A stretch of 64,000 bases of DNA. It comes from Massilia putida (lineage in GTDB: Bacteria; Pseudomonadota; Gammaproteobacteria; Burkholderiales; Burkholderiaceae_D). Location of the stretch: positions 62,001 through 126,000 of the forward strand of contig NZ_CP019037.1 in assembly GCF_001941825.1 (NCBI RefSeq), given 5' to 3'. The number at the start of each line of letters is the position of its first letter. Position 1 is the stretch's first letter. The position numbers and the translations under genes are program-made. The notes under the pieces were generated by a model. It saw only the letters and a list, made by a program, of their open reading frames with translations. It was not told the origin of the DNA and searched no databases. Shown here in pieces: positions 713-32,287 of the stretch.

Positions 713-731
713 AAATAATAGAGTATCAGTT
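713..731. promoter_or_regulatory. Operator-like 19-mer, weak copy (MFS/BKACE promoter)
   Basis: Read on the minus strand it is AACTGATACTCTATTATTT, matching the AACTGAY left half of the repeated 19-bp site in this window. The right half is degenerate. It lies between the divergent MFS and BKACE genes in an AT-rich stretch, which fits promoter DNA. It is the weakest of the eight sites. Confidence 0.4.
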
Positions 732-866
732 ATCCGAAACGTGGATGGCCGCCACCCGCTGGACGACTTGCCGGTCGCGCACTCGCGGGCTACAGTGAAC
801 GGAGAACTAACGATGATTTGGTTTTAACTTCGTGATATCGAACCCGGGAACATGAAAGGACCGACG

Positions 867-1799
867 ATGAGCAGCATTCGACAGGACAGTGAGGCGCCCG
901 TGGTGATCGAGGCAGCGGTGACACCGCTGCGCAAGGGTGCGCCGCTGCAACCCGCGCAAGCGACCGTCAGCGAGGCGACGGAGTGCCTCGCCGCCGGCGC
1001 CGCGATCATCCACTACCACCACGATTTCAGGCTCGAACGTAGCGCCGCGACCGGCCAGATCATCGATATCGGCAAGGCGATTCTGGCCGACTTCCCCCAT
1101 GCGCTTTACTACCCCGACTACATCGCGGGACGCGACGAAGACCGCGCCCTGGGGCGCCGCTACCAGCCCGATGCGCTGCTGCGACCCATGCACGACGCCG
1201 GCGCGCTGCGCATGTTCGCTCTCGATCCGGGCTTCACGCTGTTCGGGCAGCTCGACGACAAGGGGTTGCCGTCGAATTCCGTCACGGGCGGGCAGACCTA
1301 TGCCGAGGCGCACGCGATGGTCGAATATGCCCGCGAAGTCGATTGTCCGATCTCGATCGGCATCTACGAGCCCGGCAATCTGCGCTGGGTGGTGGCCTAT
1401 GCCAAGGCTGGCATGTTCCCTTCCGGGTCCCTGATCAAGATCTACTTCGGCGGCGAGTACACGATGGGCCAGGATCGCGTGCCCGGCGTGAATTTCGGCC
1501 TCGCTCCCACCAGGGCGAACCTGGACGTCTATCTCGGGATGATGCAGGGGATCGACCTGCCGTGGCAGGTGAGCGTGCAGGGCGGCGTGCTGCTCGATAC
1601 CGAGGTGGCCCGCCACGCCCTGGAGCTGGGTGGCCATCTGCGTGTGGGGGTGGAAGACACCGCCGGGGGGACGCCGATGAGCAATCGCGAGACGGTGGAA
1701 GCGGCCGTGGCGCTGGCACGGCAGGTCGGCCGTCCCGTGGCGACCGGCGAGGCTGCCCTTGCAGCACTGGCCAGGCCCCCGTTCGCGTTGGCAGCCTGA
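867..1799 (+). CDS. BKACE-family beta-keto acid cleavage enzyme (DUF849)
   Basis: About 310 residues of a TIM-barrel BKACE protein. Characterised members are Zn-dependent and condense a beta-keto acid with acetyl-CoA to give acetoacetate and a new acyl-CoA. The metal-site region reads IIHYHHD (His49 and His51 as likely ligands) and the C-terminal strand reads VGVED (Glu263 the likely third ligand). The family usually has HxHxRD, so the residues after the second His are atypical. The ATG at 867 is chosen over an in-frame ATG at 852 because AAAGGA lies 5-10 bases before it. A paralogue with the same unusual motif is at 35137. A strong terminator follows. The actual keto acid is not predictable. 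Confidence 0.87.
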   Translation: MSSIRQDSEAPVVIEAAVTPLRKGAPLQPAQATVSEATECLAAGAAIIHYHHDFRLERSAATGQIIDIGKAILADFPHALYYPDYIAGRDEDRALGRRYQPDALLRPMHDAGALRMFALDPGFTLFGQLDDKGLPSNSVTGGQTYAEAHAMVEYAREVDCPISIGIYEPGNLRWVVAYAKAGMFPSGSLIKIYFGGEYTMGQDRVPGVNFGLAPTRANLDVYLGMMQGIDLPWQVSVQGGVLLDTEVARHALELGGHLRVGVEDTAGGTPMSNRETVEAAVALARQVGRPVATGEAALAALARPPFALAA

Positions 1800-1832
1800 T
1801 CCGGCTGGACGACTCTTTAATCGGTCTCCTTG

Positions 1833-1863
1833 CCGCAAGCGCCCAGCGCTTGCGGCTTTTTTT
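1833..1863 (+). terminator. Rho-independent terminator after BKACE gene
   Basis: Perfect 10-bp stem CCGCAAGCGC / GCGCTTGCGG (1833-1842 and 1846-1855) with loop CCA, then C and seven T. It ends the transcript from 867. Confidence 0.93.
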
Positions 1864-1874
1864 ATATGGGCCGC

Positions 1875-2003
1875 TCAGGCGGCGCGCACATAGCGCAGGA
1901 CCATGTCGATCACCGCGCTGCGGCGCGCCGCGCGGATGTCCGGCGAAGCCAGGTCGCGCCCGAAGATGAAACTGAAGGTGTGTCGGTTCGAGACATTGTA
2001 GAA
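1875..2003 (-). pseudogene. C-terminal remnant of an unidentified protein
   Basis: On the minus strand an open frame of 42 codons ends in TGA and reads [20 protein letters not shown], then continues to VLRYVRAA. It has no start codon. It stops abruptly where the carboxylesterase fragment begins on the other strand. The composition suits the C-terminal ligand-binding end of a TetR-type regulator, which would also fit a gene divergent from an esterase, but I cannot name the family from 42 residues. Confidence 0.45.
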
Positions 2004-3195: not shown

Positions 3196-3261
3196 GGGCG
3201 TCGGCGCCTACCCCGCACCGCGCGTGGGAGCGTCCGGCTCCCGCGCTGCGGGCAGCGCAGT

Positions 3262-4083
3262 TCAGGCTGTCTTCGGCAGGGTGGCGGACGACTCGACCGG
3301 GGGCTTGGCCGCGCGGCCGCCTGCCGCCTTGCGGGCCTTTGCGCCGCGCGCCGTTCTCTTGCGGGGCGGTCTCTCCGGTGCCTCCGGGCCGGCAGCGGCC
3401 AGCGGCGAGTTCTCCGTCGCCGGCACGGCTGGTTCGGCCGGGATCGCGGCGCGGCATACCGTCAGCGCGACGATGCGCGCGATGTTGGCGTTGACGCGTT
3501 TCACGCCCAGGCCGGCCGCCATCACCTCGCGGTCGGTCGCGGCCATGTGTTCCATGGCGCCGTGCAGGATCGATGCTTCGGCATAGGCATCGGCGCGCTT
3601 GCGGACGCCCGGGACGGCCGGATTGATCGACAGGATGCGCTTGGCAAACCGGTCGATGAAGGGGAGGAACGTGTTCATCCTCAAGCTGACGAAGCGGGGA
3701 TCGCCCCGGGTCGCTTCGAGGTTCCGGTAGCGCAGTACAGGGCGGTGCCGGTCCCAGACCTCGTTCAGGGCATCGATGACGGTGGCCGCGTGCTGTTCGA
3801 CGCTGTCGCGCGACCAGGGTTCGTCGAAGATCGCATGTACCCGCGCCATGTCCTCGCCCGCGACCTCGCTGAGGGCATACAGGATGTCCCTGGTGTCATC
3901 GAAATACATGTAGAAGGTGGCCGGCGAGATGCACGCCTCGCCGGCGATGCCGACGGCGGTCAGTTCGAACGGCGACTGGGTGCGCAGCAGGCGCCGCGCG
4001 GCATCCATCAGCCGCGAGCGCGTCTCCAGACCCTTGCGACCGAGGATCTGGCCCTGTTTGTTCAGTCGTACGGGTGCACTCAT
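3262..4083 (-). CDS. TetR-family regulator with basic C-terminal tail
   Basis: A TetR repressor of 273 residues. The N-terminal helix-turn-helix reads AVGIAGEACISPATFYMYF (about residues 42-60) and a ligand-binding domain follows to about residue 210. The last ~60 residues are unlike the family: Ala/Pro/Arg/Lys-rich (PPRKRTARGAKARKAAGGRA), resembling the tails of histone H1-like or AlgP-type DNA-binding proteins. A perfect copy of the 19-bp operator lies 48 bp before its start (4131-4149), which suggests autoregulation and makes it the best candidate for controlling the other copies at 713, 16282, 19058, 19103, 25607, 25668 and 32269. Effector unknown; an acyl-CoA intermediate of module 1 would be usual for such regulators. 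Confidence 0.88.
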   Translation of the reverse strand: MSAPVRLNKQGQILGRKGLETRSRLMDAARRLLRTQSPFELTAVGIAGEACISPATFYMYFDDTRDILYALSEVAGEDMARVHAIFDEPWSRDSVEQHAATVIDALNEVWDRHRPVLRYRNLEATRGDPRFVSLRMNTFLPFIDRFAKRILSINPAVPGVRKRADAYAEASILHGAMEHMAATDREVMAAGLGVKRVNANIARIVALTVCRAAIPAEPAVPATENSPLAAAGPEAPERPPRKRTARGAKARKAAGGRAAKPPVESSATLPKTA

Positions 4084-4130
4084 GGTGTGGTTCAGCTCAG
4101 AACACTGCAGATACCGGCATGATAACCGAA

Positions 4131-4149
4131 AACTGTTAATGTGTCAGTT
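4131..4149. promoter_or_regulatory. Operator-like 19-mer before the TetR gene
   Basis: Minus-strand sequence AACTGACACATTAACAGTT is identical to the site at 32269-32287, and its AACTG/CAGTT ends form an inverted repeat. It lies 48 bp upstream of the TetR start at 4083. Confidence 0.72.
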
Positions 4150-4233
4150 ACGTCGTGCGTGCCCGGATGACCCGGGCGTCCCGGGATCGCGCCGCTGCGC
4201 CGGGCGGCACGCGGCCCGCCCGGCGCCCGGTGC

Positions 4234-5733: not shown

Positions 5734-5753
5734 ATTTGTTCCCCTTCGATTGG

Positions 5754-16240: not shown

Positions 16241-16281
16241 TGCAGTCCCAGTGAGTTGCGGTGATGGCCAGCATAGCACAA

Positions 16282-18122: not shown

Positions 18123-18154
18123 GTTGTTTCCTTCAGGTTGAGGTGAATCGGCGA

Positions 18155-19175: not shown

Positions 19176-20045
19176 ATGCCGCTCGACTATGACCGCATCA
19201 AGAACTGGCCCTTCGCCAAGGCCCGGCAGCGCTATACCCGCCGGGACACGATCCTGTATGCGCTCGGTATCGGCGCCGCGATGGATAACCCGCTGCCACC
19301 GGGAGAACTGCAGTTCGTCTACGAACGCAAACTGAGCGCGCTGCCGACTTTCGCCGCGGTACTGGCGGGCAACAGCGACTGGATAGCCGATCCGCGCGCC
19401 GGGATCGACCTGAGCCGGGTTTTACATGGTGAACAATTCCTTACGATCCATCAGCCACTCCCTCCCGAGGGTGAGGTGTACGGCACCGAATCGGTACAGG
19501 AAATCTACGACAAGGGAGAGGCGAAGGGCGCCGTGCTGTACATGCGGCGCGAGGTGCACGATGCGGCCAGCGGCGCCCACCTCGCCACCGCGGGGTATTC
19601 TATTTTCATGCGCGGCAATGGCGGTTTCGGCGGCACTGCCGAGGGGCAGCCGATGCCGTACGCGATGCCCGAAGGACGTGCGGCGGATGCCGCCATCGAT
19701 CTGCCGACCCGCCCGGAGCAGGCCACCCTGTACCGGCTGTCGGGAGACTGGAACCCGCTGCACGTCGATCCCGAGCTGGCCAGGGCAGCCGGGTTCGAGC
19801 GTCCGATCCTGCATGGCATGTGCAGCTACGGCATCGCGGCGCGCGCGGTGCTCAAGCTCCGCTGCGGTAGCGACGCCGGCCGCTTGCGCAAACTGAATGT
19901 GCGCTTCGCAGCGCCGGTATACCCGGGCGAAACGCTGCGTACCGAGATATGGGACGACGGCCCCGGCAAGGTGGCGTTCCGCGTGACGGCGCTGGAACGC
20001 GGCGTCGTCGCACTGAACAATGGTTATGCCGAACTCACTCTTTAA
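19176..20045 (+). CDS. MaoC-type enoyl-CoA hydratase 2
   Basis: 289 residues with a double hot-dog fold. The C-terminal half carries the hydratase-2 motif YRLSGDWNPLHVDP (Asp191 and His196 as catalytic pair) and RPILHGMCSYG. It should hydrate trans-2-enoyl-CoA to (3R)-hydroxyacyl-CoA. The ATG at 19176 has GAGGAGACAAGAC before it. It is the first gene of the operon MaoC - ECH - MaoC-like - small ORF - amidohydrolase - thiolase homologue, and is divergent from the (3R)-hydroxyacyl dehydrogenase. The adjacent MaoC-like protein at 20883 is a paralogue without the motif, so the pair may form a heteromer. Confidence 0.9.
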   Translation: MPLDYDRIKNWPFAKARQRYTRRDTILYALGIGAAMDNPLPPGELQFVYERKLSALPTFAAVLAGNSDWIADPRAGIDLSRVLHGEQFLTIHQPLPPEGEVYGTESVQEIYDKGEAKGAVLYMRREVHDAASGAHLATAGYSIFMRGNGGFGGTAEGQPMPYAMPEGRAADAAIDLPTRPEQATLYRLSGDWNPLHVDPELARAAGFERPILHGMCSYGIAARAVLKLRCGSDAGRLRKLNVRFAAPVYPGETLRTEIWDDGPGKVAFRVTALERGVVALNNGYAELTL

Positions 20046-20072
20046 CCGCTTTTCGACCTGAGGAAGAAAGAC

Positions 20073-20876
20073 ATGGAATATACCGATATCACCTACGAAG
20101 TGCTGGGCCCGGTCGTACGGATCTGCCACAACCGGCCGCAGCAAGCCAATGCCGAATCGGAGAACCTGCTGGCCGAGATCGACCATGCGCTGGACCGTGC
20201 CAAGCGGGACGACGATGTCCGCGTGCTGATCCTCGGCGGCGTCGGCAAGCATTTCTCGGCCGGACACGACCTCGTCGAGGGCATGGAAAAACGCGGCAAA
20301 TTCACGCCAGAGCAGAGCTGGCTGTGGGAAAGCGAGTACTACCTCGGCAATGCGATGCGCATCCACGATTTTCCCAAACCGACCGTCGCGCAGGTGCAGG
20401 GCGCCTGTGTCGCCGGCGGCTTCATGGTCGCCAACATGTGCGACCTGATGGTGGCGTCGGACGATGCGTTTTTCAGCGACCCGGTCGTCCACAGCCTAGC
20501 TGCCGCGTCGGTCGAGACCCTGGTGCACCCGTGGGTCATGGGCATGCGCAAGGCCAAGGAATTCCTGTTCACCGGCCAGCGCCTGTCGGCCGCAGAGGCC
20601 AAGGAGTGGGGGATGGTCAACCACGTGGTGCCGCGCGCCGACCTGGAGGCGTTTACGCTCAAGCTTGCGCAGCACATCGCCCTTGCCCCGCCGATCGGCA
20701 TCCGCATGATGAAACGTTCGTTGAACCGCGCGGCGGACATCATGGGCTTTCGCAATTCGATCATGGCGCATTTCGACACGCACACGCTCAGCACCGAAAC
20801 GGCCGAACACCACCGCCTGCGCAATGCGGGCATGGACAAATCCCTGGCGAAGGCCAAGGAAGTGCGCGGAGCATGA
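20073..20876 (+). CDS. Enoyl-CoA hydratase/isomerase family protein
   Basis: 267-residue crotonase-fold protein: KHFSAGHDL is the first oxyanion-hole segment and VQGACVAGGFMVANMCDLM the second. At the position where hydratases carry the second catalytic Glu the sequence reads FFSDPVVHSLAAASVE, so classical hydration is doubtful; it could be an isomerase, a hydrolase or a specialised lyase. GAGGAAGAAAGAC precedes the ATG. It is sandwiched between the two MaoC genes in the operon from 19176. Confidence 0.86.
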   Translation: MEYTDITYEVLGPVVRICHNRPQQANAESENLLAEIDHALDRAKRDDDVRVLILGGVGKHFSAGHDLVEGMEKRGKFTPEQSWLWESEYYLGNAMRIHDFPKPTVAQVQGACVAGGFMVANMCDLMVASDDAFFSDPVVHSLAAASVETLVHPWVMGMRKAKEFLFTGQRLSAAEAKEWGMVNHVVPRADLEAFTLKLAQHIALAPPIGIRMMKRSLNRAADIMGFRNSIMAHFDTHTLSTETAEHHRLRNAGMDKSLAKAKEVRGA

Positions 20877-20882
20877 GGTGCC

Positions 20883-21737
20883 ATGAAGGCCGAGAACCCG
20901 ACTGTGGCATTCGATAGCGCCCGCCTGCTGGCACGACGCTTTCCGGCCGTCCGCCGGGCCTATGACGCCCGCGATGTCGAACGGATCACGCGTGGCTACG
21001 GCGCGGGCCTCGGCCCGGCGCTTGAGGCGTTCGACCGCGATTGCCTCGCGGGCGCCAAGGTCTTGCCGATGCTGGCGCTGGCGCTGGCCGACGGCGAGTT
21101 CTGGCAGAAGGACCCGGACACGGGCATCGACTGGCGTCGCATCGTGCACGCCGAGGAGGTGCTGACGGTGCATGCGCCGCTGCCGGCCGCCGGTGCGGTG
21201 GTCGTGACGCAGCGCGTGGCGGCCATCTCCGACCGTGGCCCGGACAAGGGCGCCGTGATGGAGCAGCAGCAATTCCTGCACGCGGAGGACGGCACGGCGC
21301 TCGCCACCATCGACGTCACCACCCTATTGCGCGGCAACGGCGGCTTCGGAGGACCCCCATGGTCGCCACGACGTCGTGCCCTGCCGGCGGATCGCGCACC
21401 CGACCTCGTCGTGGAACTGCGCGCCCCCGGCGACAACGAGGACGCCATGTTCAGGCTTGGCCGGGAACTGGCGGTCGCGGCGGACGGGAAGGCCATGATG
21501 CGCGGGCTCGGATGTTTCGGGCTGGCGGGACGGGCTGCGCTCCAGGCGGCATGCGGCGGCCAGCCGGAACGCCTGCGGCGCATGGGCGTGCGCTACGTCG
21601 GGCCCATGTATTGCGGCGAGGCCCTGCTGGTGGAACTGTGGCATGGCACATCGGGAGAGGCGCTGTTCCGCATGTCGGCGCCGGAACGCTCGGCGCCCGT
21701 CCTGGACAACTGTTTTATCGAGTTCGATGCGGAATGA
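20883..21737 (+). CDS. MaoC-like protein with lost hydratase motif
   Basis: 284 residues, a paralogue of the MaoC protein at 19176. The N-terminal hot-dog half aligns (LRGNGGFGG in both) and the C-terminal half aligns after MFRLGRELAV. The stretch that should hold GDWNPLH is missing: about ten residues including the catalytic Asp and His are deleted around residues 190-196. It is intact otherwise, overlaps the next small ORF by ATGA, and is in a tight operon, so it is probably a functional non-catalytic subunit or a thioester-binding partner. Two-subunit MaoC hydratases are known from steroid side-chain degradation (ChsH1-ChsH2). Confidence 0.82.
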   Translation: MKAENPTVAFDSARLLARRFPAVRRAYDARDVERITRGYGAGLGPALEAFDRDCLAGAKVLPMLALALADGEFWQKDPDTGIDWRRIVHAEEVLTVHAPLPAAGAVVVTQRVAAISDRGPDKGAVMEQQQFLHAEDGTALATIDVTTLLRGNGGFGGPPWSPRRRALPADRAPDLVVELRAPGDNEDAMFRLGRELAVAADGKAMMRGLGCFGLAGRAALQAACGGQPERLRRMGVRYVGPMYCGEALLVELWHGTSGEALFRMSAPERSAPVLDNCFIEFDAE

Positions 21738-21814
21738 GCATCCGGCACGACAATCCGCGCCGACAGGCCGCCCAGGCGGCGGCACGACGCGGTACCCTTG
21801 GAAAATCCAAATAA
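21734..21814 (+). CDS. Possible 26-residue small protein
   Basis: ATG at 21734 overlaps the MaoC-like stop (ATGA). The frame encodes MSIRHDNPRRQAAQAAARRG and six more residues, then stops 12 bp before the next gene. It is strongly basic. It may be a coupling ORF that hands ribosomes to the amidohydrolase gene; I know no family for it. Confidence 0.3.
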   Translation: MSIRHDNPRRQAAQAAARRGTLGKSK

Positions 21815-21826
21815 CTGGAGATAGCG

Positions 21827-23113
21827 ATGGAAATGAATGACATGATACTGATCAGTGTGGACGACCACGTGATCGAGCCGCCTGACCTGTTCAAGAACCA
21901 CCTTCCCGCATCGATGCTGGATCGCGCACCGAAGATGGCGACGCTGCGCTCCGGTTCCGACTCGTGGGTCTACGAAGGCCGCTCCAACCCCAATTTCGGC
22001 CTGAATGCCGTCGTCGGACGCCCGCTGGAGGAATACGGCATGGAGCCGGCCTCGTACAGCCAGATCCGCAAGGGTACCTATTCCCTGAAAGAGCGGGTCG
22101 AGGACATGGACGTCAACGGCGTGCTGGCTTCCATCTGCTTTCCGACCTTCCCGACCTTCGGCGGCGCCTTCTTCCTCCAGGCGAACGACAAGGAGTTCAC
22201 CCGCGCGGTCATCAGCGCCTACAACGACTGGCATATCGACGAGTGGTGCGGCGGCGCGCCCGGCCGTTTCATTCCGCTGGCGATCCTGCCGCTGTGGGAC
22301 ATCGACGCCTGCGTCGCCGAAGCGCGCCGGGTGGCCCGCAAGGGCTGCCGCACCATCAGCTTCCTCGACAGCCCGGTCGCAAAGGGCCTGCCGAGCATCC
22401 ACAGCGGCCACTGGGATCCCCTGTTCGCCGTCATGCAGGAAGAGGGCCTGGTCATCAGCATCCACATCGGCTCGGGCGCCTTCGTCCCCTACCAGTCGAA
22501 CGATGCGCCGATCGATACGTGGATTACCACGATGCCGATGTATATCGCGAACGCCACGACCGACTGGCTGTTCTCGCACGTGTTCAAGAAATTCCCGAAC
22601 CTGAAGATCGCGCTGTCGGAAGGCGGCATTGGTTGGGTGCCGTACCTGCTGGAGCGCGCCGATTTCACGTACATGCATCACAAGGCGTGGACTCACAGCA
22701 ATTTCGGCGGCATGCTGCCTAGCGAGCTGTTCAAGAAGAACTTCATCACGTGCTTCATCGACGACAAGTTCGGCCTGCATAACACGCAGTTCATGAATAT
22801 CGATAAGATCACCTGGGAATGCGACTATCCGCACTCCGACACGGTCTGGCCGCACTGCCCGGAGGCATTGTGGGAGTCGATCAAGCATTTGCCCAAAGAG
22901 TCGATCGACAAGATCACCCACCTGAACGCCATGCGCGAATTTAACTTCGACCCGTTCGCCATCATGCCGCGCGAGGAATCGACGGTCGGCGCGTTGCGCG
23001 CCAAGGCCACCCACGTCGACACGCGTCCGGTGGCCAACCAGGGCGGCCATAATCCTTCCAATTCGGAAGGCAAGCCCGTCACCAGCGCCGAAGTCATGAA
23101 GCTGTTCGCGTAA
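21827..23113 (+). CDS. Amidohydrolase 2 family metal-dependent hydrolase
   Basis: 428 residues of the amidohydrolase-2 (ACMSD-like) TIM-barrel family. VDDHVIEPPD carries a variant of the N-terminal metal site (HVIEP in place of HxHxxP), HIGSG supplies a barrel His, and WECDYPHSDTVWP the C-terminal metal Asp and neighbouring residues. Family members are hydrolases or decarboxylases of cyclic or aromatic acids; this branch is often annotated only as predicted TIM-barrel hydrolase. CTGGAGATAGCG precedes the ATG. It sits between beta-oxidation genes, so a ring-opening, decarboxylation or retro-aldol-type step is possible. A second member at 24381 is in the same regulon. Confidence 0.86.
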   Translation: MEMNDMILISVDDHVIEPPDLFKNHLPASMLDRAPKMATLRSGSDSWVYEGRSNPNFGLNAVVGRPLEEYGMEPASYSQIRKGTYSLKERVEDMDVNGVLASICFPTFPTFGGAFFLQANDKEFTRAVISAYNDWHIDEWCGGAPGRFIPLAILPLWDIDACVAEARRVARKGCRTISFLDSPVAKGLPSIHSGHWDPLFAVMQEEGLVISIHIGSGAFVPYQSNDAPIDTWITTMPMYIANATTDWLFSHVFKKFPNLKIALSEGGIGWVPYLLERADFTYMHHKAWTHSNFGGMLPSELFKKNFITCFIDDKFGLHNTQFMNIDKITWECDYPHSDTVWPHCPEALWESIKHLPKESIDKITHLNAMREFNFDPFAIMPREESTVGALRAKATHVDTRPVANQGGHNPSNSEGKPVTSAEVMKLFA

Positions 23114-23124
23114 CCGGGACCAGG

Positions 23125-24309
23125 ATGAGAATCCAGGTTCCCGAACGTCAGGCGCTCATCTCCGGCATCGGTCAGTCGGCCTCGGGCCGCCGGCTGGGCC
23201 GGGGTGGACTGGATCTGACACTGGAAGCCGCGCTGGCGGCGATCGAGGACGCCGGTATCGACCGGCGCGACATCGACGGCATGTCCAGCTGGCCGGGATA
23301 TCGGGCGGACGAGCCAGGCTTCTCCCCGGTACAGATCGGGCAGGTGAAAGATGCGCTCGGCCTCAAACTGAACTGGTACACGGCCGGCATCGAAGCCACG
23401 CAGCTGGGAGGTGTCCTGAACGCCTGCATGGCGGTCGCGTCCGGCCAGGCGCGCCACGTGCTCGTGTTCCGCACCGTGACCGAGACGTCGGCGGCGGCCG
23501 GCGCCCGCCCCAGCCTGATCGGCAACGGCAGCCAGCGCGTGACCGGTTTCGCCGAACATCTCGCGCCGTTCCTCGCGCCGTCGGCGGCGAACTGGATCGG
23601 GATGGTGGCCACACGCTACTTCCATGAGTTCGGCGCGACGCGCGAGCAGCTGGCGCAGGTGGCCATCAATGCGCGCCGCAACGCCGGCCTGAATCCCGCC
23701 GCGGTGTACCGCGATCCGCTCACGCTGGAACAATACATGGCGGCCCGCATGATTTCCACGCCGCTGTGCCTGTACGATTGCGACGTGCCGATCGACGGTT
23801 CGATCGCCCTGATCGTCTCGCATGCCGACACGGCCCGCGATCTGAAGTCGCCGCCGGTCCGCGTCGAGGCCATGTCGGGTGCGCTGCACACGAAGGACAC
23901 ATGGGACCAGCTGGAGGACTACACCCGCTACTCGGCGGAAGCGTGCGGGGAGCGCTTGTGGAGTCGTACCGATCTTACGCCCGCGGACGTCGATGTCGCC
24001 CAGTTATACGACGGATTCAGTTTTCTCAGCCTGCTGTGGCTGGAAGCGCTCGGCTTTTGCGGACGCGGCGAAGCTGCCGCTTTCGTGGCCGACGGCAGGC
24101 GCATCGCGCTCGACGGCGATCTGCCGCTGCATACGGGAGGCGGGCAACTGTCCGGCGGACGGCTGCATGGACTGATCCACGTGGTGGAAGCGGTGGCGCA
24201 GCTGCGCGGGCAGTGTGGCGCGCGCCAAGTGCGCAACGATCCGCGCGTGGCGGTCGTATCGAACGGCGGCGGTCCGATTGCCGGCGCCATGCTGCTCGTG
24301 CGTGACTGA
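23125..24309 (+). CDS. SCP2-thiolase homologue without catalytic Cys (Ltp2-like)
   Basis: 394 residues of the lipid-transfer-protein thiolase family. Compared with the intact thiolase at 16944, the nucleophilic Cys is replaced by Glu90 (GIEATQLGG), the HDCF His by Tyr (LYDGFSF), and the GHPLG His by Arg (GGRLHG). It cannot run the classical thiolase reaction. Related Cys-less proteins such as Ltp2 in actinobacterial steroid catabolism are retro-aldolases that work with a DUF35 partner; no DUF35 gene is seen here. It is the last gene of its operon, followed by a terminator. A C-C lyase role is inferred. Confidence 0.87.
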   Translation: MRIQVPERQALISGIGQSASGRRLGRGGLDLTLEAALAAIEDAGIDRRDIDGMSSWPGYRADEPGFSPVQIGQVKDALGLKLNWYTAGIEATQLGGVLNACMAVASGQARHVLVFRTVTETSAAAGARPSLIGNGSQRVTGFAEHLAPFLAPSAANWIGMVATRYFHEFGATREQLAQVAINARRNAGLNPAAVYRDPLTLEQYMAARMISTPLCLYDCDVPIDGSIALIVSHADTARDLKSPPVRVEAMSGALHTKDTWDQLEDYTRYSAEACGERLWSRTDLTPADVDVAQLYDGFSFLSLLWLEALGFCGRGEAAAFVADGRRIALDGDLPLHTGGGQLSGGRLHGLIHVVEAVAQLRGQCGARQVRNDPRVAVVSNGGGPIAGAMLLVRD

Positions 24310-24380: not shown

Positions 24381-25568
24381 TCAGCGCTTCCCTTCCAGCA
24401 GATCCTTCAGGTTCGTACTCATGACCCGCTGCGTCTGTCCCGCGTCCAGGCTGGCAATGTCTTTCAGGTAGTCCATCGGATTGCCCAGGCCTTCGGGATG
24501 GGGCCAGTCGCTGCCGAACAGCACGCGCTCCACGCCGATCAGTTCCACCACGTTGCTGATGCTGTCCTCATAAAAGGGCGCCACGTACACATGCTCGCGG
24601 AACGTTTCGCGCGGGTCGCGCTTGAATGCTTTCGGCATCTTGTGGAACGTGCTGCCAAGGCGCTTGAGCAGCGGTTCGAGCCAGGTGGCGCCGTTCTCCA
24701 GCGAAGCGACCCGCACGTTCGGGAAGCGGTCGAACATGCCGTGACAGATCATCGCCGCGAGCGAGTCGGCGATCGGCCGGCCCATCCAGTCCAGGACTTC
24801 GCCGAAGGGGTCCTTTTCGAACGGCCGGAATTCGCCCTTGCCGCCGGCGGTCCACCACTGGAAGATCTTGTCGTAGCCGGAGTCGGACACGTGCATCACG
24901 ACGAAAATCCGCGATTCCTCGATACGTGCCCAGAACGGGTCGAATTCCTTGAAACCCATGGAACGGCCGCCCTTCAGGCCGGCCACCGGCGCCGGGCGAA
25001 TGCCGACCACGCGAGCGCCCGCCTTCAGCAGGAAGTCCAGTTCCGCGCACGCGGCGTCGACGTCGGACAGGTTGATCATCGGCACCGGGAACAGCCGGCC
25101 CTGGCACGCGAAGCCGCATTCCTCAGCGGTCCACATGTTCAGGCTATGCAGCAGCGCGTGGATGACTTCCGGCTGCGCGGACAGGCGCTCCTCGATGATC
25201 GATGCGAGGGTCGGCAGGAACAGCCCTGCGTGGATGTGCTGTTCGTCCATCACGGCGATGTGGGCGTCGCCATTGTGGAACGACGCCTGCGAAGCGATCG
25301 GTTCGCCGGTCGCCTCGCGCAGCGACAGGCCGTCCGGGTTGTCGCCCCGGTACCATTTTTCGTGCACACCGGGCGCCGCGACGACTTCGAAGGTCGGGTT
25401 CGGAATGTAGTCGGACAACTGCCCGCCGACGGCCAGCTTGGTGCGCCCGTTGACCTGGACATACTGGAACTCCTTGTGGAATTTCTTGGGCAGATGGCGC
25501 AGGAACGCCTCGGGCGGCTCGTAGAAGTGGCGATCGGCGTCGTAGATAGGGTAGCTGGAAGTGTTCAT
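24381..25568 (-). CDS. Amidohydrolase 2 family metal-dependent hydrolase
   Basis: 395 residues, a second ACMSD-like amidohydrolase. YDADRHFYEPPE is the N-terminal metal-site variant, FVVMHVSDSG gives a barrel His, and LFGSDWPHPEG the C-terminal Asp/His motif. It is only distantly related to the protein at 21827 and is transcribed alone leftward from the operator-rich divergent promoter at 25.6 kb. Two such enzymes in one regulon suggest that the substrate has a ring or beta-keto/enol unit that is opened or decarboxylated. The exact reaction is not predictable. Confidence 0.87.
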   Translation of the reverse strand: MNTSSYPIYDADRHFYEPPEAFLRHLPKKFHKEFQYVQVNGRTKLAVGGQLSDYIPNPTFEVVAAPGVHEKWYRGDNPDGLSLREATGEPIASQASFHNGDAHIAVMDEQHIHAGLFLPTLASIIEERLSAQPEVIHALLHSLNMWTAEECGFACQGRLFPVPMINLSDVDAACAELDFLLKAGARVVGIRPAPVAGLKGGRSMGFKEFDPFWARIEESRIFVVMHVSDSGYDKIFQWWTAGGKGEFRPFEKDPFGEVLDWMGRPIADSLAAMICHGMFDRFPNVRVASLENGATWLEPLLKRLGSTFHKMPKAFKRDPRETFREHVYVAPFYEDSISNVVELIGVERVLFGSDWPHPEGLGNPMDYLKDIASLDAGQTQRVMSTNLKDLLEGKR

Positions 25569-25686: not shown

Positions 25687-25713
25687 TTCTCTGCATGCTT
25701 TGAGAGGAGGAAA

Positions 25714-26409
25714 ATGATGACCAATCTTGTGGTAGTGACCGGCGCGGCGGGGGCGCTCGGCAGGGCGGTGGTTGCGGCGTTCCTGGAAAACGGCGACCGG
25801 GTGCTGGCCGTCGATATCGACGCGGGCGCATTGCGCGGGGCATACGAGGGGCAGGACAGGGTGCGGACAGTGGCCGCCAACCTGGTGGACGCCAGTCTCG
25901 CCGGTCGCGCATTGGCCGAAGCGCTCGCTGCCGACGGCCCCGCGGCGGTCCTGTGCAATATCGCAGGCGGCTTCGACATGGGCCCGGCCGTCCATGAAGA
26001 TACAGGCGGGTTATGGCGCCGCATGATGGACCTGAACGTGGCGACCCTGATCAATGCCTGCGCGGCGATCGTGCCGGGCATGCTGGCCGGCGGCGGCGGG
26101 AAGATCGTCAACGTCGCAGCGGCTTCTGCCGCCAGCGGCAAGGCCGCCATGGGCGCCTACATCGCTTCCAAGGACGCGGTCGCCCGATTGACCGAAAGCA
26201 TGTCCCAGGAGTTGCGCGGGCAGGGCATCAACGTGAACGCGGTCGCGCCCAGCATCCTCGACACGCCGGCCAACCGCATGGGCATGCCTGACGCCGATCC
26301 CGGGCGCTGGGTCGGTGTCAGCGACCTGGCGGCCGTGGTGGTGTTCCTGGCGTCGGCGCGGGCCCGGGCCGTGCACGGCGCGGTGATTCCCGTGGTGGGC
26401 CTGAGCTGA
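25714..26409 (+). CDS. SDR-family oxidoreductase
   Basis: 231-residue short-chain dehydrogenase, shorter than its neighbours. TGAAGALG is the cofactor motif, AVDID selects NAD(H), CNIAG replaces NNAG, and the active site is NVAAASAAS...YIASK, in which the Ser position is shifted (AAAS). The strong AGGAGG before the ATG at 25714 fixes the start, although the frame is open further upstream. It is the first gene of the operon SDR - ECH - ETF-QO - thiolase under the operator at 25668. Confidence 0.86.
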   Translation: MMTNLVVVTGAAGALGRAVVAAFLENGDRVLAVDIDAGALRGAYEGQDRVRTVAANLVDASLAGRALAEALAADGPAAVLCNIAGGFDMGPAVHEDTGGLWRRMMDLNVATLINACAAIVPGMLAGGGGKIVNVAAASAASGKAAMGAYIASKDAVARLTESMSQELRGQGINVNAVAPSILDTPANRMGMPDADPGRWVGVSDLAAVVVFLASARARAVHGAVIPVVGLS

Positions 26410-26411
26410 GC

Positions 26412-27176
26412 ATGGAACTGCTGACGGCACGGCACGGCCCCGTCGAGGTGCTGACGCTGAACCGGCCGGCGCAGCGCAACGCCCTGACGCCCGGATTGAT
26501 TGCCGCCTTGTCCGCCGCACTCGGAGAAGCGGCGGCATCGGAGGAGGTGCGCGCCGTCGTGTTGACCGCGGTGGGCGACAAGGCATTCTGCGCGGGCATG
26601 GACCTGGGCGCCTTCGCGCTGGATCGAAACGACCATGGTGCCCGTACCAATCTCCATTACGACCGGTTTGCGACAGGCTGCTACCCCAAGCCCGTGATCG
26701 CGGCGATCAATGGCAGCGCTGTCGCCGGCGGTTTTGAACTGCTGCTCCACTGCGACCTGGCGGTGGCTGCCCGGCATGCGATGTTCGGTTTGCCGGAAGT
26801 GAAGCGGGGACTGTTCCCGGCCGGTGGCGGCACCCTGCTGCCGTCGCGGATCCCCCTTGCGCTGGCGCTCGAATTCGGGCTGACAGGAGAGCTGGTCGAC
26901 GCATCCCGGCTCCTCCAGCTTGGCCTGCTGAACCGGGTGGTGGACAGCACCGAGGTCGTTGGAGCGGCACTGGCGCTGGCCCAGCGCGTCGCGTCCAACG
27001 CGCCTCTCGGGGTCGCCGCAACCCGGCGTGCGATGTGGCGTTGCTCACGCGAGGGCACCGAGGCCGCGCGCCGATCGCTCCAGGCGAGTATCGACGAAGT
27101 CTTCCAGAGCGACGACGCGCTCGAAGGTGCGCGGGCATTCACGGAAAAGCGCCCGCCGCGGTGGACCGGAAAATGA
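26412..27176 (+). CDS. Enoyl-CoA hydratase/isomerase family protein
   Basis: 254-residue crotonase-fold enzyme. AFCAGMDLGAF and GSAVAGGFELLL form the oxyanion hole, and FGLPEVKRGLFPAGGG includes the conserved catalytic Glu; the usual first Glu position is not obvious. It starts 2 bp after the SDR stop, so translation is coupled. It probably hydrates an unsaturated CoA ester in the lower part of module 1. Confidence 0.88.
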   Translation: MELLTARHGPVEVLTLNRPAQRNALTPGLIAALSAALGEAAASEEVRAVVLTAVGDKAFCAGMDLGAFALDRNDHGARTNLHYDRFATGCYPKPVIAAINGSAVAGGFELLLHCDLAVAARHAMFGLPEVKRGLFPAGGGTLLPSRIPLALALEFGLTGELVDASRLLQLGLLNRVVDSTEVVGAALALAQRVASNAPLGVAATRRAMWRCSREGTEAARRSLQASIDEVFQSDDALEGARAFTEKRPPRWTGK

Positions 27177-27213
27177 CAACAGTGCCCTTGATGGGCAAAC
27201 GACAAGGCAATAA

Positions 27214-28881
27214 ATGAGTCCGCAATTTGAAGAATACGCCCCCCGTGAAGCCATGGAATACGACGTGGTCATCGTCGGCGGCGGCCCGGCCGGCCTGGCA
27301 GCAAGCATCCGCCTGAAACAGCTGGCGGCCGAGAAAGGCCAGGACGTGTCGGTCTGCGTGCTGGAAAAAGGCGGCGAGCTGGGCGCGCACATCCTGTCGG
27401 GCGCCGTGATGGACCCGCGCGCGCTGGACGAACTGTTCCCGAACTGGAAGGAACTGGGCGCACCGCTGAACACGCCCGTGACGGAAGACCGCGTGCTGTT
27501 CCTCACCGAGACCAAGTCGTACCAGACGCCGTCGATGTTCGTGCCGAAGATGCTGACGAACCATGGCAACTACGTGATCTCGCTGGCCAACGTCGTGCGC
27601 TGGCTGGGCCAGCAGGCGGAAGCGCTCGGTGTCGAGATCTTCCCCGGCTTCCCGGCCGCCGAGATCCTGTACAACGACGACGGCTCCGTGAAGGGCGTTG
27701 CCACCGGCAACATGGGCGTCAACCGCCACGGCCAGCCGACCGATGCGTTCCAGCTGGGCATGGAGTTGCACGCGAAATACACGCTGTTCGCGGAAGGCTC
27801 GCGCGGCCACCTCGGCAAGCAGCTGATGGCGAAGTACGACCTGAACAAGGGCAAGGATCCGCAGACCTACGGCATCGGCATCAAGGAACTGTGGGAAATC
27901 GATCCGGCCAAGCACAAGCCGGGCCTCGTGATCCACACGGCCGGCTGGCCGCTGGATAACGACACCTACGGCGGCTCGTTCCTGTACCACCTGGAAAACA
28001 ACCAGGTCGCGGTCGGCTTCGTCGTAGGACTGGCCTACCAGAACCCGTACCTGTCGCCGTACGAAGAGTTCCAGCGTTATAAAACGCACCCGGCGATCCG
28101 CCACTTCTTCGAAGGCGGCAAACGCATCTCGTACGGCGCGCGCGCGATCACGGCAGGCGGCCTGCAGTCGCTGCCGAAGACCGTGTTCCCGGGCGGCGCG
28201 CTGATCGGCTGCGACGCCGGCTTCCTGAACACGAGCCGCATCAAGGGCAGCCACGCCGCCATCAAGACGGGCATGCTGGCCGCTGACGCCGCGTACGCCG
28301 CACTGGGCGCGGGCCGCCAGCACGACGAGCTGCTGAGCTATCCGGTCGCCTTCGAACAGTCGTGGCTGCACGAGGAACTGCACGTCGCGCGCAACTTCAA
28401 GCCGTGGATGAGCAAGGGCCTGATCACGGGCACGATCATGGTCGGCATCGACCAGATCCTGTTCAAGGGCAAGGCGCCGTGGACGCTGCACCACACCCAC
28501 GCGGACCACGAATGCCTGCGCCCGGCGTCCGACTTCAAGCCCATCGTCTATCCGAAGCCGGACGGCAAGCTGACGTTCGACCGCCTGTCGTCCGTGTTCA
28601 TCTCGAACACGAACCATGCGGAAGACCAGCCCATCCACCTCACGCTGAAGAATCCGAACGTGCCGGTCGAGATCAACCTGGCCAAGTTCGCGGGTCCGGA
28701 ACAGAGATACTGCCCCGCCGGCGTGTATGAGTTCGTGAAGACGGACGAGGGCAAGGACCGCCTGCAGATCAATGCGCAGAACTGCTTGCACTGCAAGACC
28801 TGCGACATCAAGGACCCGACGCAGAACATCGTGTGGGTCACGCCGGAAGGTGGCGGCGGGCCGAATTATACAAATATGTAG
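27214..28881 (+). CDS. Electron transfer flavoprotein-ubiquinone oxidoreductase
   Basis: 555 residues, full length for ETF-QO, a membrane-associated FAD and 4Fe-4S enzyme that passes electrons from reduced ETF to ubiquinone. YDVVIVGGGPAGLAASI is the FAD-binding Rossmann motif, and the C-terminal cluster ligands are in AQNCLHCKTCDI plus an upstream Cys in YCPAGVYEF. It lies 37 bp after the ECH gene and serves the acyl-CoA dehydrogenases of this region. A second full-length copy is at 42449 in the leucine operon. Confidence 0.95.
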   Translation: MSPQFEEYAPREAMEYDVVIVGGGPAGLAASIRLKQLAAEKGQDVSVCVLEKGGELGAHILSGAVMDPRALDELFPNWKELGAPLNTPVTEDRVLFLTETKSYQTPSMFVPKMLTNHGNYVISLANVVRWLGQQAEALGVEIFPGFPAAEILYNDDGSVKGVATGNMGVNRHGQPTDAFQLGMELHAKYTLFAEGSRGHLGKQLMAKYDLNKGKDPQTYGIGIKELWEIDPAKHKPGLVIHTAGWPLDNDTYGGSFLYHLENNQVAVGFVVGLAYQNPYLSPYEEFQRYKTHPAIRHFFEGGKRISYGARAITAGGLQSLPKTVFPGGALIGCDAGFLNTSRIKGSHAAIKTGMLAADAAYAALGAGRQHDELLSYPVAFEQSWLHEELHVARNFKPWMSKGLITGTIMVGIDQILFKGKAPWTLHHTHADHECLRPASDFKPIVYPKPDGKLTFDRLSSVFISNTNHAEDQPIHLTLKNPNVPVEINLAKFAGPEQRYCPAGVYEFVKTDEGKDRLQINAQNCLHCKTCDIKDPTQNIVWVTPEGGGGPNYTNM

Positions 28882-28928
28882 GCAAGAAAATGTAGGCACG
28901 GAACGCAATCAACTGGAATGGAGCATGT

Positions 28929-30110
28929 ATGCAAAGAGAAGTCGTGATCGTCAGTGGAGTTCGAACCGCCATTGGCGCCTTTGGCGGTAGTTTGAAAGAC
29001 TTTCCTCCCACCGAACTGGCGTCGCGCGTCACGCGCGAAGCGCTGGAACGCGCGGGTGTTCACGGCGACGACGTCGGGAACGTCGTGTTCGGCAATGTGA
29101 TTCACACCGAACCTGCGGACATGTACCTCGCGCGCGTGGCGGCAGTACGTGCCGGGATCTCCCACGCGGCACCGGCGTTGACCGTGAATCGCCTGTGCGG
29201 CTCCGGCCTGCAGGCCCTGGTATCGGCGGCGCAGTCGATTCTGCTCGGCGATGCGGCTATCGCTGTCGCAGGCGGCGCGGAAAACATGAGCCGTGCTCCG
29301 CATGCGACGAACGCCCTGCGCTGGGGCACCCGCATGGGGGATGTCAGCTTCGTCGACATGATGACAGGTGCGCTGACCGATCCGTTCGATCAGGTCCACA
29401 TGGGTATCACTGCCGAGAATGTCGCGCAGCGCTATGGCATCGCCCGGGAGGCGCAGGATGCGCTGGCGCTGGAATCACACAGGCGCGCGGCGCATGCCAC
29501 CTCCGCCGGTCACTTCAAGGAGCAAATCCTGCCGATCGCCGTCAAGTCGCGCAAGGGTGAGGTGCTGTTCGACACGGACGAGCACATCCGCCCGGAGACG
29601 ACCCTGGAAGGATTGGCCTCCATGCGGACCGCGTTCAAGAAGAACGGCACGGTCACGGCCGGCAATGCTTCCGGTCTGAACGACGGTGCCGCGGCGCTGG
29701 TGCTGATGGAACGGGGCGTGGCGGAGCAGCGTGGCGTCAAGCCGCTGGCACGCCTGGTCGCTTATGCGCATGCCGGTGTGGATCCGAAATACATGGGCAT
29801 CGGCCCCATTCCCGCCAGCCGTCTGGCGCTGCAGCGCGCCGGCTTGACGGTCGCCGATATCGACGTCGCGGAGGCCAATGAAGCATTCGCCGCTCAGGCT
29901 TGCGCCGTCACGGCGGGGCTGGAACTGGATCCGGCAAAGGTGAATCCGAATGGTTCCGGCATCGGACTGGGACATCCTATCGGCGCCACCGGCGCCATCA
30001 TCACCGTGAAAGCATTGTACGAATTGCAGCGCACCGGCGGGCGCTATGCGCTCGTGACGATGTGCATTGGCGGCGGCCAGGGCATCGCGGCGATTTTTGA
30101 ACGCATCTGA
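28929..30110 (+). CDS. Acetyl-CoA C-acyltransferase (thiolase)
   Basis: 393-residue classical thiolase with nucleophile Cys90 in NRLCGSG, GLGHPIGATGA with the active-site His, and the second Cys in MCIGGGQG. It cleaves 3-ketoacyl-CoA with CoA, or runs in reverse. It is the last gene of the operon from 25714 and is followed by a strong terminator. It is very similar along its full length to the thiolase at 38728, so one arose by duplication or both came from the same kind of donor. Confidence 0.94.
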   Translation: MQREVVIVSGVRTAIGAFGGSLKDFPPTELASRVTREALERAGVHGDDVGNVVFGNVIHTEPADMYLARVAAVRAGISHAAPALTVNRLCGSGLQALVSAAQSILLGDAAIAVAGGAENMSRAPHATNALRWGTRMGDVSFVDMMTGALTDPFDQVHMGITAENVAQRYGIAREAQDALALESHRRAAHATSAGHFKEQILPIAVKSRKGEVLFDTDEHIRPETTLEGLASMRTAFKKNGTVTAGNASGLNDGAAALVLMERGVAEQRGVKPLARLVAYAHAGVDPKYMGIGPIPASRLALQRAGLTVADIDVAEANEAFAAQACAVTAGLELDPAKVNPNGSGIGLGHPIGATGAIITVKALYELQRTGGRYALVTMCIGGGQGIAAIFERI

Positions 30111-30132
30111 ATCTGGTTGGCCAGGCGTCGAT

Positions 30133-30166
30133 AACCGGGTAGCGTTGAGCGCTACCCGGTTTGTTT
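30133..30166 (+). terminator. Rho-independent terminator after thiolase
   Basis: Perfect 12-bp stem AACCGGGTAGCG / CGCTACCCGGTT with loop TTGAG, then TGTTTT. It marks the right end of module 1. Confidence 0.92.
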
Positions 30167-30234
30167 TCGAGACTGGCATACCTGATACTACAGTTGTAAT
30201 TTTTTTTAAACTTCGGCCCGCGCCTTGTTTCTGA

Positions 30235-30387
30235 CTCTATGCAACGCGGGACGAAGCCAGGCAGGGCATCGTCGACTACATCGAGATGTTCTCCAATCCA
30301 AAGCGGCGCCACAGCTTCAATGAACGACTGTCTCCAGTAAAGCAGTGGAGATTCAGCCCTCTCGCCGGGGTTCTGTTGCCGCCATGA
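30235..30387 (+). mobile_element. IS3-family transposase (OrfB) 3' remnant
   Basis: An open stretch after TGA at 30232 reads ATRDEARQGIVDYIEMFSNP, then KRRHSFNERLSPVKQW, and stops at 30385-30387. This is the well-known C-terminal end of IS3-group integrase-type transposases (YIE-FYN-RRH---SP). The catalytic DDE core is missing, so the remnant is inactive. It occupies much of the gap between the thiolase and the chemoreceptor genes. Confidence 0.8.
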
Positions 30388-30527
30388 GTTCAGCCACACC
30401 GGACTGCTCAGCCTCGATCTCCCGCAACAGCAGCGCGGAGCGGCCAACGATATCTGCGGCGCGGTAGCCGGTCGTGGATTCGAAGGCCGATGCGACGGAA
30501 CCCTCACGGAATGCAGCCGTCACAAGA
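30353..30527 (-). pseudogene. Possible PAS-domain fragment
   Basis: A minus-strand open frame ending in TGA reads AFESTTGYRAADIVGRS, which resembles the F--TGY---DIIGR core of a PAS domain, with no start codon and no other domain. It overlaps the IS3 remnant and the 3' end of the chemoreceptor gene. Together with the 30190-30387 stretch it explains the intergenic DNA here. Weak call. Confidence 0.3.
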
Positions 30528-32169
30528 CGCTCGCTCGCGCTGGCGCTCCAAGCCTGAGCACTTGCTTCCAGCGTGGGCGTCGCACCGGCTGTATCGCCGT
30601 TACCTCGCCTTCTTCCACAGGGCCTTCCAGCTTGAACACGCTCACCGCACTAGCCAGTGCCGCCGCCTGGTCGCGCAGCGCTTCCGTCGACGCCATCGCT
30701 TCCTCCACCAGCGCCGAATTCTGCTGCGTCATATCATCCATCTGCGCGACTGCCTCCGTCACCGCATTGATCCCCGTGCTCTGCGCCAGGGTCGCCGCGC
30801 TGATCTGGGCCACGATCGCCGTCACCTTCTGCACTGCGTCCTGGATTTCGGTCATGGTCGTGCCAGCCTGCTCGACCAGTTCATGACCGGTATCGACCCG
30901 GCCCACGGAATCGACGATCAGCCCCTTAATCTCGCGCGCCGCATCGGCGGACCTGTGTGCCAGGTTCCTGACCTCGGCGGCGACGACGGCAAACCCGCGC
31001 CCCTGTTCTCCTGCGCGCGCCGCTTCGACCGCGGCATTCAGCGCCAGGATATTGGTCTGGAACGCAATGCTGTCGATCACACCGGTGATGTCGCCGATGC
31101 GCCGCGACGATTCCTTGATCAGGTTCATGGTCGATACCACCTGACTGACCACCGCCCCGCCTTTGAGCGCGGTCGCAACGGCGTTTGTGCCGAGCTGGTT
31201 GGCCAGTTCCGCATTGCCGGCGTTCTGGCGAACGGTGGCATTCAATTCGTCGACTGCCGTCGACGTCGCGTGCAGCGAATCTGCTTGCTGCTCCGTGCGT
31301 TCGGAAAGCTGCGCAGTGCCCAAGGCGATCTCGACCGACGCTGTGGCGATGCTGTCGGTACCGGCGCGTACATCGCCGACGATGCTTGCCAGGCTGCCGT
31401 TCATGTTTTTCAGCGACAGCATCAGGGCACCTATTTCGTCCGTCGAACGCACCGTGATGTCGACGCTGAGGTCACCGTTGGCTACCTTGCCGGCCAGCGC
31501 GACAGCATCGTTGAGCGGGCGCGTGATGCCGCGCGTGACCAGTATCGAAAGGGCCACCCCGATCACACTGGCGGCGAGCGCAATGGCGGCCATGATCTTG
31601 AGCGACACGGCGGTCGCGGCGGCGGCATGCTCCCCGGCCGCTTCGGCCTGCTTGCCCTGGTACTGGATCAGGCTGTCGACCGCGGCGACATATGATTCGG
31701 CGAACGGCTGGATCTGCGACAGCATCAGGTCCTTCGCCGGCGCCAGCTGGCCTTCCTTGACCATCATAACAAAGCGGCCGCGCAGCTCGTTGAAGTCAGC
31801 CCGCTTCCGGTTGAGGTTGGCTATATGCTGGCGCTCTTCATCGGACCCGTTCATCATCGCGGCGAGCTTGACGCTGTTCTCTTCGACGAACTCGCCGCTC
31901 TGCTGCATCAGCGACAATTGCGTCTGGCTGGCGGCGACATCGTTGACCACCAGGATGTTGCGCATGTTGCCGACCATGTCGGTCAGGTCGGCCTTGATGG
32001 TGTTGACCAGCACCGTGGCGGGGTATCGCTCCTTCACGATCACGCCGAGGCGGCCATTGCTCTGCCACAGCTGGAGCGCGCTGATGCCGGTAATGACGAT
32101 CATCAGTACGATCAAGGTGCCGAACCCCGCGCCGAGCCGATGCCCGATCTTCAAACTGCTTGGTTTCAT
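30520..32169 (-). CDS. Methyl-accepting chemotaxis protein
   Basis: About 549 residues: first transmembrane helix near residues 12-32 (LGAGFGTLIVLMIVITGISA), a ~150-residue four-helix-bundle-like periplasmic sensor, second transmembrane helix near 185-207, HAMP, and a full signalling domain with the conserved hairpin tip (IDSIAFQTNILALNAAVEAA). The ATG at 32169 has GGAGACAGAGAC before it and is preferred over 32184. The last ~20 residues (RWKQVLRLGAPARASVL) may run across a rearrangement junction. A perfect copy of the catabolic operator lies 100 bp upstream, so expression may be tied to module 1. Confidence 0.9.
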   Translation of the reverse strand: MKPSSLKIGHRLGAGFGTLIVLMIVITGISALQLWQSNGRLGVIVKERYPATVLVNTIKADLTDMVGNMRNILVVNDVAASQTQLSLMQQSGEFVEENSVKLAAMMNGSDEERQHIANLNRKRADFNELRGRFVMMVKEGQLAPAKDLMLSQIQPFAESYVAAVDSLIQYQGKQAEAAGEHAAAATAVSLKIMAAIALAASVIGVALSILVTRGITRPLNDAVALAGKVANGDLSVDITVRSTDEIGALMLSLKNMNGSLASIVGDVRAGTDSIATASVEIALGTAQLSERTEQQADSLHATSTAVDELNATVRQNAGNAELANQLGTNAVATALKGGAVVSQVVSTMNLIKESSRRIGDITGVIDSIAFQTNILALNAAVEAARAGEQGRGFAVVAAEVRNLAHRSADAAREIKGLIVDSVGRVDTGHELVEQAGTTMTEIQDAVQKVTAIVAQISAATLAQSTGINAVTEAVAQMDDMTQQNSALVEEAMASTEALRDQAAALASAVSVFKLEGPVEEGEVTAIQPVRRPRWKQVLRLGAPARASVL

Positions 32170-32268
32170 TGTCTCTGTCTCCATATTTTTATCATGCTTG
32201 GAATCGCATACGCGATGCAGTCGTTCGCTACGCGTCGATCAGGTACCTACTGACCATGCCTCTAATAA

Positions 32269-32287
32269 AACTGACACATTAACAGTT
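32269..32287. promoter_or_regulatory. Operator-like 19-mer upstream of the chemoreceptor
   Basis: AACTGACACATTAACAGTT, identical to the minus-strand site in front of the TetR gene (4131-4149). It is 100 bp before the chemoreceptor start and about 130 bp from the IS6 remnant. Confidence 0.68.

Follow-up and report, generated by a model that had tools for sequence, protein, structure and literature searches.

In this study, we analysed a 64,000-nucleotide stretch of Massilia putida DNA (contig NZ_CP019037.1, positions 62,001 to 126,000; hereafter the window) and found that one palindromic sequence recurs in many promoters of a 70-kb catabolic island, which extends beyond the left edge of the window. 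The palindrome is very probably the operator of two paralogous TetR-family repressors, TetR-A and TetR-B (PF19352 subfamily), which are predicted to bind it. One operator and one regulon with a TetR regulator had been proposed in the initial annotation of this DNA; both the concentration of sites in the island and their recurrence beside TetR relatives support this proposal, and a single shared regulon across the island is well supported. It is larger than previously described, extending 37 kb past the left edge of the window and including about ten promoters. What was computed here comprises the sites, their concentration in the island, where they lie within promoters, their occurrence next to TetR relatives and the recurring operator-gene pairings; TetR binding, repression and the existence of an inducer are what we infer. 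Positions refer either to the window or to its contig, called C2, on which the window is C2:62001-126000; the genome of 7.52 Mb consists of contigs C1 (78 kb), C2 (457 kb) and C3 (6.99 Mb).

Alignment on both strands defined the operator unit as a palindrome, AACTGAY-N5-RTCAGTT, flanked on either side by about 2 conserved, A/T-rich positions, about 23 bp in total (consensus table of 15 sites, the eight of the initial annotation and seven added in this follow-up). All eight 19-mers were found where the annotation had placed them and, as it had noted, two of them (4131 and 32269) are identical over 19 bases, as reverse complements. The shared site is thus real, its earlier consensus was loosely worded, and a count of eight copies was too low. 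When up to 3 mismatches to the plain palindrome were allowed, the window gave 10 matches against 0.93 expected and a maximum of 4 among 100 shuffles; these are seven of the eight sites (713 was not picked up) and positions 1970, 9725 and 34249. A symmetric 23-bp matrix was then trained on the eight window sites only, which score 23.0-30.1 bits when each is left out in turn. With this matrix, 17 sites in C2:24-96 kb reached at least 20 bits, namely the eight training sites and nine held-out sites (C2 24943, 24977, 40705, 41633, 47851, 48069, 48159, 62805 and 95135). Seven of the held-out sites lie left of the window, and the other two are window positions 805 and 33135 (Table 1). Weaker matches were obtained at window 9725 in a promoter gap (Table 1), at window 1970 (16.1 bits), at C2 48669 (18.0 bits, within AmeA) and at window 34249 (11.8 bits, within an aminotransferase open reading frame, ORF).

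The matrix was run on C2 and on a 459-kb control (20 C3 and 3 C1 stretches); for the rest of C3 (6.6 Mb) and of C1 (18 kb), coverage was by patterns only. No position in the control reached 18 bits, and the other 385 kb of C2 contain one site of at least 20 bits. With 2 mismatches, AACTGACNNNNNGTCAGTT occurs at 20 places genome-wide, 11 of them in the island, one of which (C2:63970, window 1970) is the site that reaches merely 16.1 bits in the matrix. A degenerate pattern matched 13 places in the 7.5-Mb genome, 11 of them in the island, and its reversed control matched 2; this count is partly circular, because the pattern was drawn from the 15 sites, whereas the held-out matrix test is not. 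Equally good matches scattered over the genome, which would argue against a regulon, were thus found neither with the degenerate pattern nor in the control.

After refinement of the list of coding sequences, none of the 17 strong sites falls within a gene, although the listed genes occupy 84% of the island. Six genes were trimmed for this list because their longest ORF overran a site. At window 19058/19103 and 25607/25668, the longest ORFs of MaoC and of two short-chain dehydrogenases/reductases (SDR3 and SDR4) overlap a site, and the domain or homologue begins downstream. Pfam domains start at residue 59 of SDR3, residue 50 of SDR4 and residue 37 of the SDR at C2:40707-41588; homologues start at residue 33 of MaoC and residue 54 of an old yellow enzyme (OYE), and the NIPSNAP homologue aligned from residue 12, just beyond the site. 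With gene starts refined in this way, the claim that all eight sites first described are intergenic holds. Operon membership was inferred from strand and spacing. Left of the window, the sites precede NIPSNAP; OYE and an SDR; a DUF35 gene followed by acyl-CoA dehydrogenases; TetR-A; and AmeABCD-like genes with an aldehyde dehydrogenase. At the window edge, they precede a run encoding a major facilitator superfamily (MFS) transporter, CoA ligase, hydrolase, MFS transporter and beta-keto acid cleavage enzyme (BKACE), and a divergent BKACE gene. Within the window, they precede TetR-B; hydrolase-ligase-SDR genes and folE; SDR-SCP2 thiolase genes and a run of MaoC, enoyl-CoA hydratase (ECH), MaoC, amidohydrolase and thiolase; further on, an amidohydrolase-2 gene and a run of SDR, ECH, electron transfer flavoprotein-ubiquinone oxidoreductase (ETF-QO) and thiolase; and a chemoreceptor.

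TetR-B (window 3262-4083) had been named as the obvious candidate regulator. A TetR regulator stands, as the site follows TetR relatives, but TetR-B is not the sole candidate: TetR-A (C2:46881-47705), which lies left of the window beside the AmeABCD-like genes and had been overlooked, is equally a candidate, because the paralogues share near-identical DNA-binding helices. A reading with a single TetR was therefore rejected. The proteins are 72% identical over their full length (74% in the genome search), and a site is located upstream of both genes, its centre 155 bp from TetR-A and 57 bp from TetR-B. PF19352 scores above its cut-off in both proteins; the N-terminal TetR helix-turn-helix PF00440 (cut-off 24) passes in TetR-A with 27.8 bits and falls slightly short in TetR-B with 21.8, and the pair has the TetR-type N- and C-terminal domains. 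Neither protein matched NCBIfam at E 0.001. TetR-A and TetR-B do not differ in the recognition-helix stretch SPATFYMYF or in the conserved N-terminal arm, whose residues N8, K9, Q10, G11, Q12, L14, G15, K17 and G18 each show at least 95% conservation among 89 relatives. Potentially, this arm contacts the A/T flanks of the operator. The tree joins TetR-B to P0005 (100/100) within a five-row clade which also contains TetR-A.

The operator is also found with TetR relatives in other genera, including Gamma- and Alphaproteobacteria. A scan of genome contigs yielded four relatives in named records, the family, class and phylum draws three, none and one more, and plasmid records two. Own genome included, a TetR match was present in 4 of 392 genomes of the family, 1 of 369 of the class and 2 of 398 of the phylum (the own genome and one 35% relative), and in 1 of 15 of the genus of genome G173. 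One Herbaspirillum locus (L068) contains DNA already present in another (L063; 76 of 76 sampled 50-mers) and was not counted a second time. Because relatives were scarce in these searches, nine distinct loci form the basis of the comparison. In seven of these, a site is located within 450 bp upstream of the TetR gene (six strong, one weak), and an eighth locus has sites elsewhere in its cluster only. The best upstream scores were 34.8 bits in Herbaspirillum autotrophicum, 34.6 in a Porticoccaceae metagenome-assembled genome (MAG), 31.4 in a Cellvibrionales MAG, 31.0 in G173, 26.6 in Sphingomonas paeninsulae, 21.1 in genome G183 and 15.1 in Fulvimonas soli; after dinucleotide shuffling, a locus contains 0-0.01 sites at or above 20 bits on average. 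The TetR/AmeA gap carries three sites in both Herbaspirillum and M. putida. Pairings of the operator with particular genes recur as well, with OYE in Herbaspirillum, with DUF35, MaoC and amidohydrolase 2 in Fulvimonas and with an OB-fold (DUF35-type) gene in Azospirillum. The DitZ-like gene, fourth in the MaoC run of M. putida, is accompanied in Fulvimonas by sites of its own, of 19.9 and 22.8 bits. In S. paeninsulae, a 28.7-bit site begins 28 bp from the DitZ-like gene start, about 60 kb from the TetR gene of this species; no other site in 49 kb reaches 16 bits.

Several observations weigh against a dedicated TetR operator. A strong site of 20.4 bits lies outside the island, at C2:334531, 240 kb away, and the plain pattern with 3 mismatches is unspecific (144 places genome-wide versus 97 for the reversed control). 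A palindrome at own and target promoters is found with two exceptions, both at own promoters: the TetR gene of Azospirillum sp. B510 has no upstream site (best 2.2 bits), and neither has L074, the locus of the most distant relative (37% identity; best 7.7 bits). The Azospirillum TetR cluster contains three strong sites, with one of 20.1 bits in the adjoining stretch; in another Azospirillum stretch (L076), all positions stay below 16 bits. The upstream site of Fulvimonas is weak, and the only positions of its 20-kb locus above 15.1 bits are five other operator-like sites (19.9-30.0 bits). In G183, the best of 100 shuffles of the same locus (21.7 bits) reaches the score of the site. The compared promoter gaps share short local matches, mostly at the operator, but two Herbaspirillum gaps align with M. 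putida over 46-59 bp; part of the Herbaspirillum conservation therefore reflects common descent, as the alignment extends beyond the operator. In favour of the operator, a sigma70-like pair scoring at least 9 was detected near 19 of 38 sites versus 3% of positions 120-600 bp away; we take this as supporting evidence only, because this background was not matched in composition, operator edges being A/T-rich, and neighbouring sites share promoters.

These points have to be weighed together with other explanations of the sites. The sites are A/T-rich within a window of 66% GC and might be copies of a dispersed repeat, or A/T-rich palindromes that arose by chance. However, the promoter gaps of M. 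putida itself share short matches only, mostly at the operator, and the control lacks positions of at least 18 bits; the repeat reading was rejected on the former ground, and we consider such an origin extremely improbable. Binding by TetR being predicted from sequence, a regulator of another class that travels with the islands could instead bind the site, with the TetR proteins as bystanders. A LysR gene at C2:24990 adjoins two sites, and other regulators are located near the TetR genes elsewhere (IclR in Azospirillum, LysR and FCD in Sphingomonas). On the other hand, the gene run flanking this LysR gene (C2:25918-38012, BKACE to thioesterase) contains no matrix site of at least 12 bits, a symmetric palindrome close to the TetR start suits TetR dimers, and the site recurs in eight of the nine loci, which were selected by TetR, despite their differing gene content. 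This makes a regulator of another class improbable.

A less distant alternative is that TetR-A alone reads the operator and that TetR-B has drifted in function, the site at its promoter being merely a target. TetR-A adjoins the AmeA operon, as in Herbaspirillum, the 72-74% identity of the paralogues leaves room for divergence, and TetR-B occupies its own tree branch with P0005. Nevertheless, the shared recognition helix and arm, together with the strong site of the TetR-B promoter (31.4 bits), argue for binding by both proteins, and we regard a role of TetR-A alone as rather unlikely.

For the preferred reading, an operator of both TetR proteins, two common placements relative to the predicted promoters suit steric repression: the operator either supplies the -35 element (4131: CTGACA-N17-TATCAT) or closely follows the -10 element (C2 48069: TTGACG-N17-TATTCT). 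In the absence of substrate, TetR dimers would occupy the operator, and over a predicted -35 or just past a -10 element they would block RNA polymerase. The substrate or a CoA-thioester intermediate might then release the repressor, which would jointly induce uptake, the AmeABCD-like exporter, chemotaxis, beta-oxidation-type enzymes and both TetR genes.

The island encodes CoA ligases, acyl-CoA dehydrogenases, a DUF35 protein, an SCP2-type thiolase, MaoC proteins and an AmeABCD-like exporter. This gene content points to degradation of a hydrophobic alicyclic acid in successive CoA-dependent steps, and the substrate is probably a terpenoid- or steroid-like one. No Rieske or P450 gene was found in the island (C2:24-96 kb); three of the 13 matches of a Rieske search of the genome are on C2 (173671, 178469 and 398355), all outside the island. 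It is tempting to speculate, though only tentatively, that two closely similar repressors, belonging to a so far undescribed subfamily of TetR, use one operator across a mosaic island to join sensing, export and breakdown of one class of terpenoid- or steroid-like compounds, that they may answer different inducers (the parent compound and a CoA intermediate), and that the regulator-operator pair has moved among Alpha-, Beta- and Gammaproteobacteria with differing catabolic genes. The operator unites into one pathway about ten promoters whose relation was earlier only guessed, and places unusual partners, folE, a chemoreceptor and an RND-type exporter, under one control. It also provides a ready promoter for reporter screens, a direct route to the pathway substrate, and scanning for it may lead to sister pathways in other bacteria.

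It is a well-supported prediction that this is a known kind of system, a TetR repressor with a palindromic operator, whose operator was not found in print; among the matches listed, searches of open-access literature gave no description of the operator, the TetR subfamily or the regulon. EdcR, of estrogen degradation in Caenibius tardaugens, is likewise a TetR-type repressor with a palindromic operator over catabolic promoters and a partial site at its own gene (PMC8700777). Its operator, TnnCnnTACnAnTnGTAnnGnnA, differs from AACTGAY-N5-RTCAGTT when the consensuses are compared by eye (PMC8700777), and membership in an EdcR-type steroid regulon was rejected, as TnnCnnTACnAnTnGTAnnGnnA was not matched. 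SAV151 of Streptomyces avermitilis, listed with avermectin production, belongs to the TetR family and has an identical half-site, AACTGAC/GTCAGTT, but the half-sites are spaced by 10 bp versus 5 here (GAACTGACACTCTAGCTTGTCAGTTC), a comparison by operator alone (PMC10933834). CymR, a TetR-type regulator of p-cymene/p-cumate degradation, also controls the catabolism of terpene-derived aromatics through a palindromic operator, which is ACAAACAGAC-N6-GTCTGTTTGT and therefore different (PMC5224996). The gene order of AmeABCD in Castellaniella defragrans (DUF1302, DUF1329, YCF48/COG4447, RND-type (RND/MMPL)), proposed as an exporter in monoterpene detoxification (PMC6394551), is also present at C2:48201-54936. 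Unlike those of C. defragrans, the M. putida genes have two operator copies in front and TetR-A adjoining. The amidohydrolase-fold protein at window 21827-23113 is close to DitZ (PDB 8uyr, E 6e-116), by its name presumably a protein of the dit clusters of resin acid degraders, in which ditA1 is reported as essential (PMC10710418; PMC13063091). In contrast to these, C2:24-96 kb of M. putida encodes no Rieske protein; assignment to an abietane dit cluster by its DitA1 Rieske dioxygenase failed, the DitZ-like protein being a shared mark.

Table 1. Operator sites and associated genes in the window (window positions; scores from the 23-bp matrix).
Feature	Position	Strand	Remarks
Operator, 26.7 bits	713..731		Between MFS/CoA-ligase/hydrolase/MFS/BKACE genes (-, mostly left of window) and BKACE (+)
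Second operator, 20.5 bits, held-out	805..823		Same divergent promoter as 713; missed in the initial annotation
BKACE	852..1799	+	Pfam PF05853
TetR-B, candidate repressor	3262..4083	-	PF19352 (TetR_C_38) family
Operator, 31.4 bits	4131..4149		Centre 57 bp upstream of TetR-B; reverse complement of 32269 site
Weak candidate operator, 17.9 bits	9725..9743		Gap between SDR (-) and acyl-CoA dehydrogenase (+)
CoA ligase and alpha/beta hydrolase	13776..16279	-	SDR 12936-13760 downstream; presumed operon from 16282 operator
Operator, 29.4 bits	16282..16300		Between hydrolase genes (-) and folE (+)
GTP cyclohydrolase I (folE)	16336..16902	+	
SCP2-type thiolase and SDR	16944..19010	-	SDR start approximate, set near domain start
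Operator, 26.2 bits	19058..19076		SDR/MaoC divergent promoter
Operator, 29.2 bits	19103..19121		SDR/MaoC divergent promoter
MaoC, enoyl-CoA hydratase, MaoC-like, DitZ-like amidohydrolase-fold enzyme, thiolase	19176..24309	+	
Second amidohydrolase-2 family enzyme	24381..25568	-	
Operator, 28.6 bits	25607..25625		Amidohydrolase/SDR divergent promoter
Operator, 32.7 bits	25668..25686		Amidohydrolase/SDR divergent promoter
SDR, enoyl-CoA hydratase, ETF-QO, thiolase	25720..30110	+	SDR start approximate
Methyl-accepting chemotaxis protein	30520..32184	-	
Operator, 32.6 bits	32269..32287		Centre 94 bp upstream of chemoreceptor gene
Operator-like site, 22.4 bits, held-out	33135..33153		1-kb gap upstream of chemoreceptor gene

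Some neighbouring genes were also noted. The run at C2:25918-38012 encodes BKACE, 3-hydroxyacyl-CoA dehydrogenase, ECH, CoA ligase, acyl-CoA dehydrogenase, electron transfer flavoprotein and thioesterase, and is divergent from the LysR gene. Window 33222-64000 forms a second module with another ETF-QO, thiolase and BKACE and a PEP-utilising enzyme, and contains no strong operator site; P450 genes are located in this module (C2:123227) and just past the window (C2:133991). A carboxylesterase reading frame at window 2077-3195 looks like a fragment, because its Pfam match starts at profile position 153. No second DUF1302 gene was found in C2:20-130 kb (tblastn); a second DUF1329 (AmeB-like) gene is present at window 5754-7136 and is 68% identical to the gene at C2:49989-51380. 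The location of folE (16336-16902) under a catabolic operator may reflect a pterin demand of the pathway.

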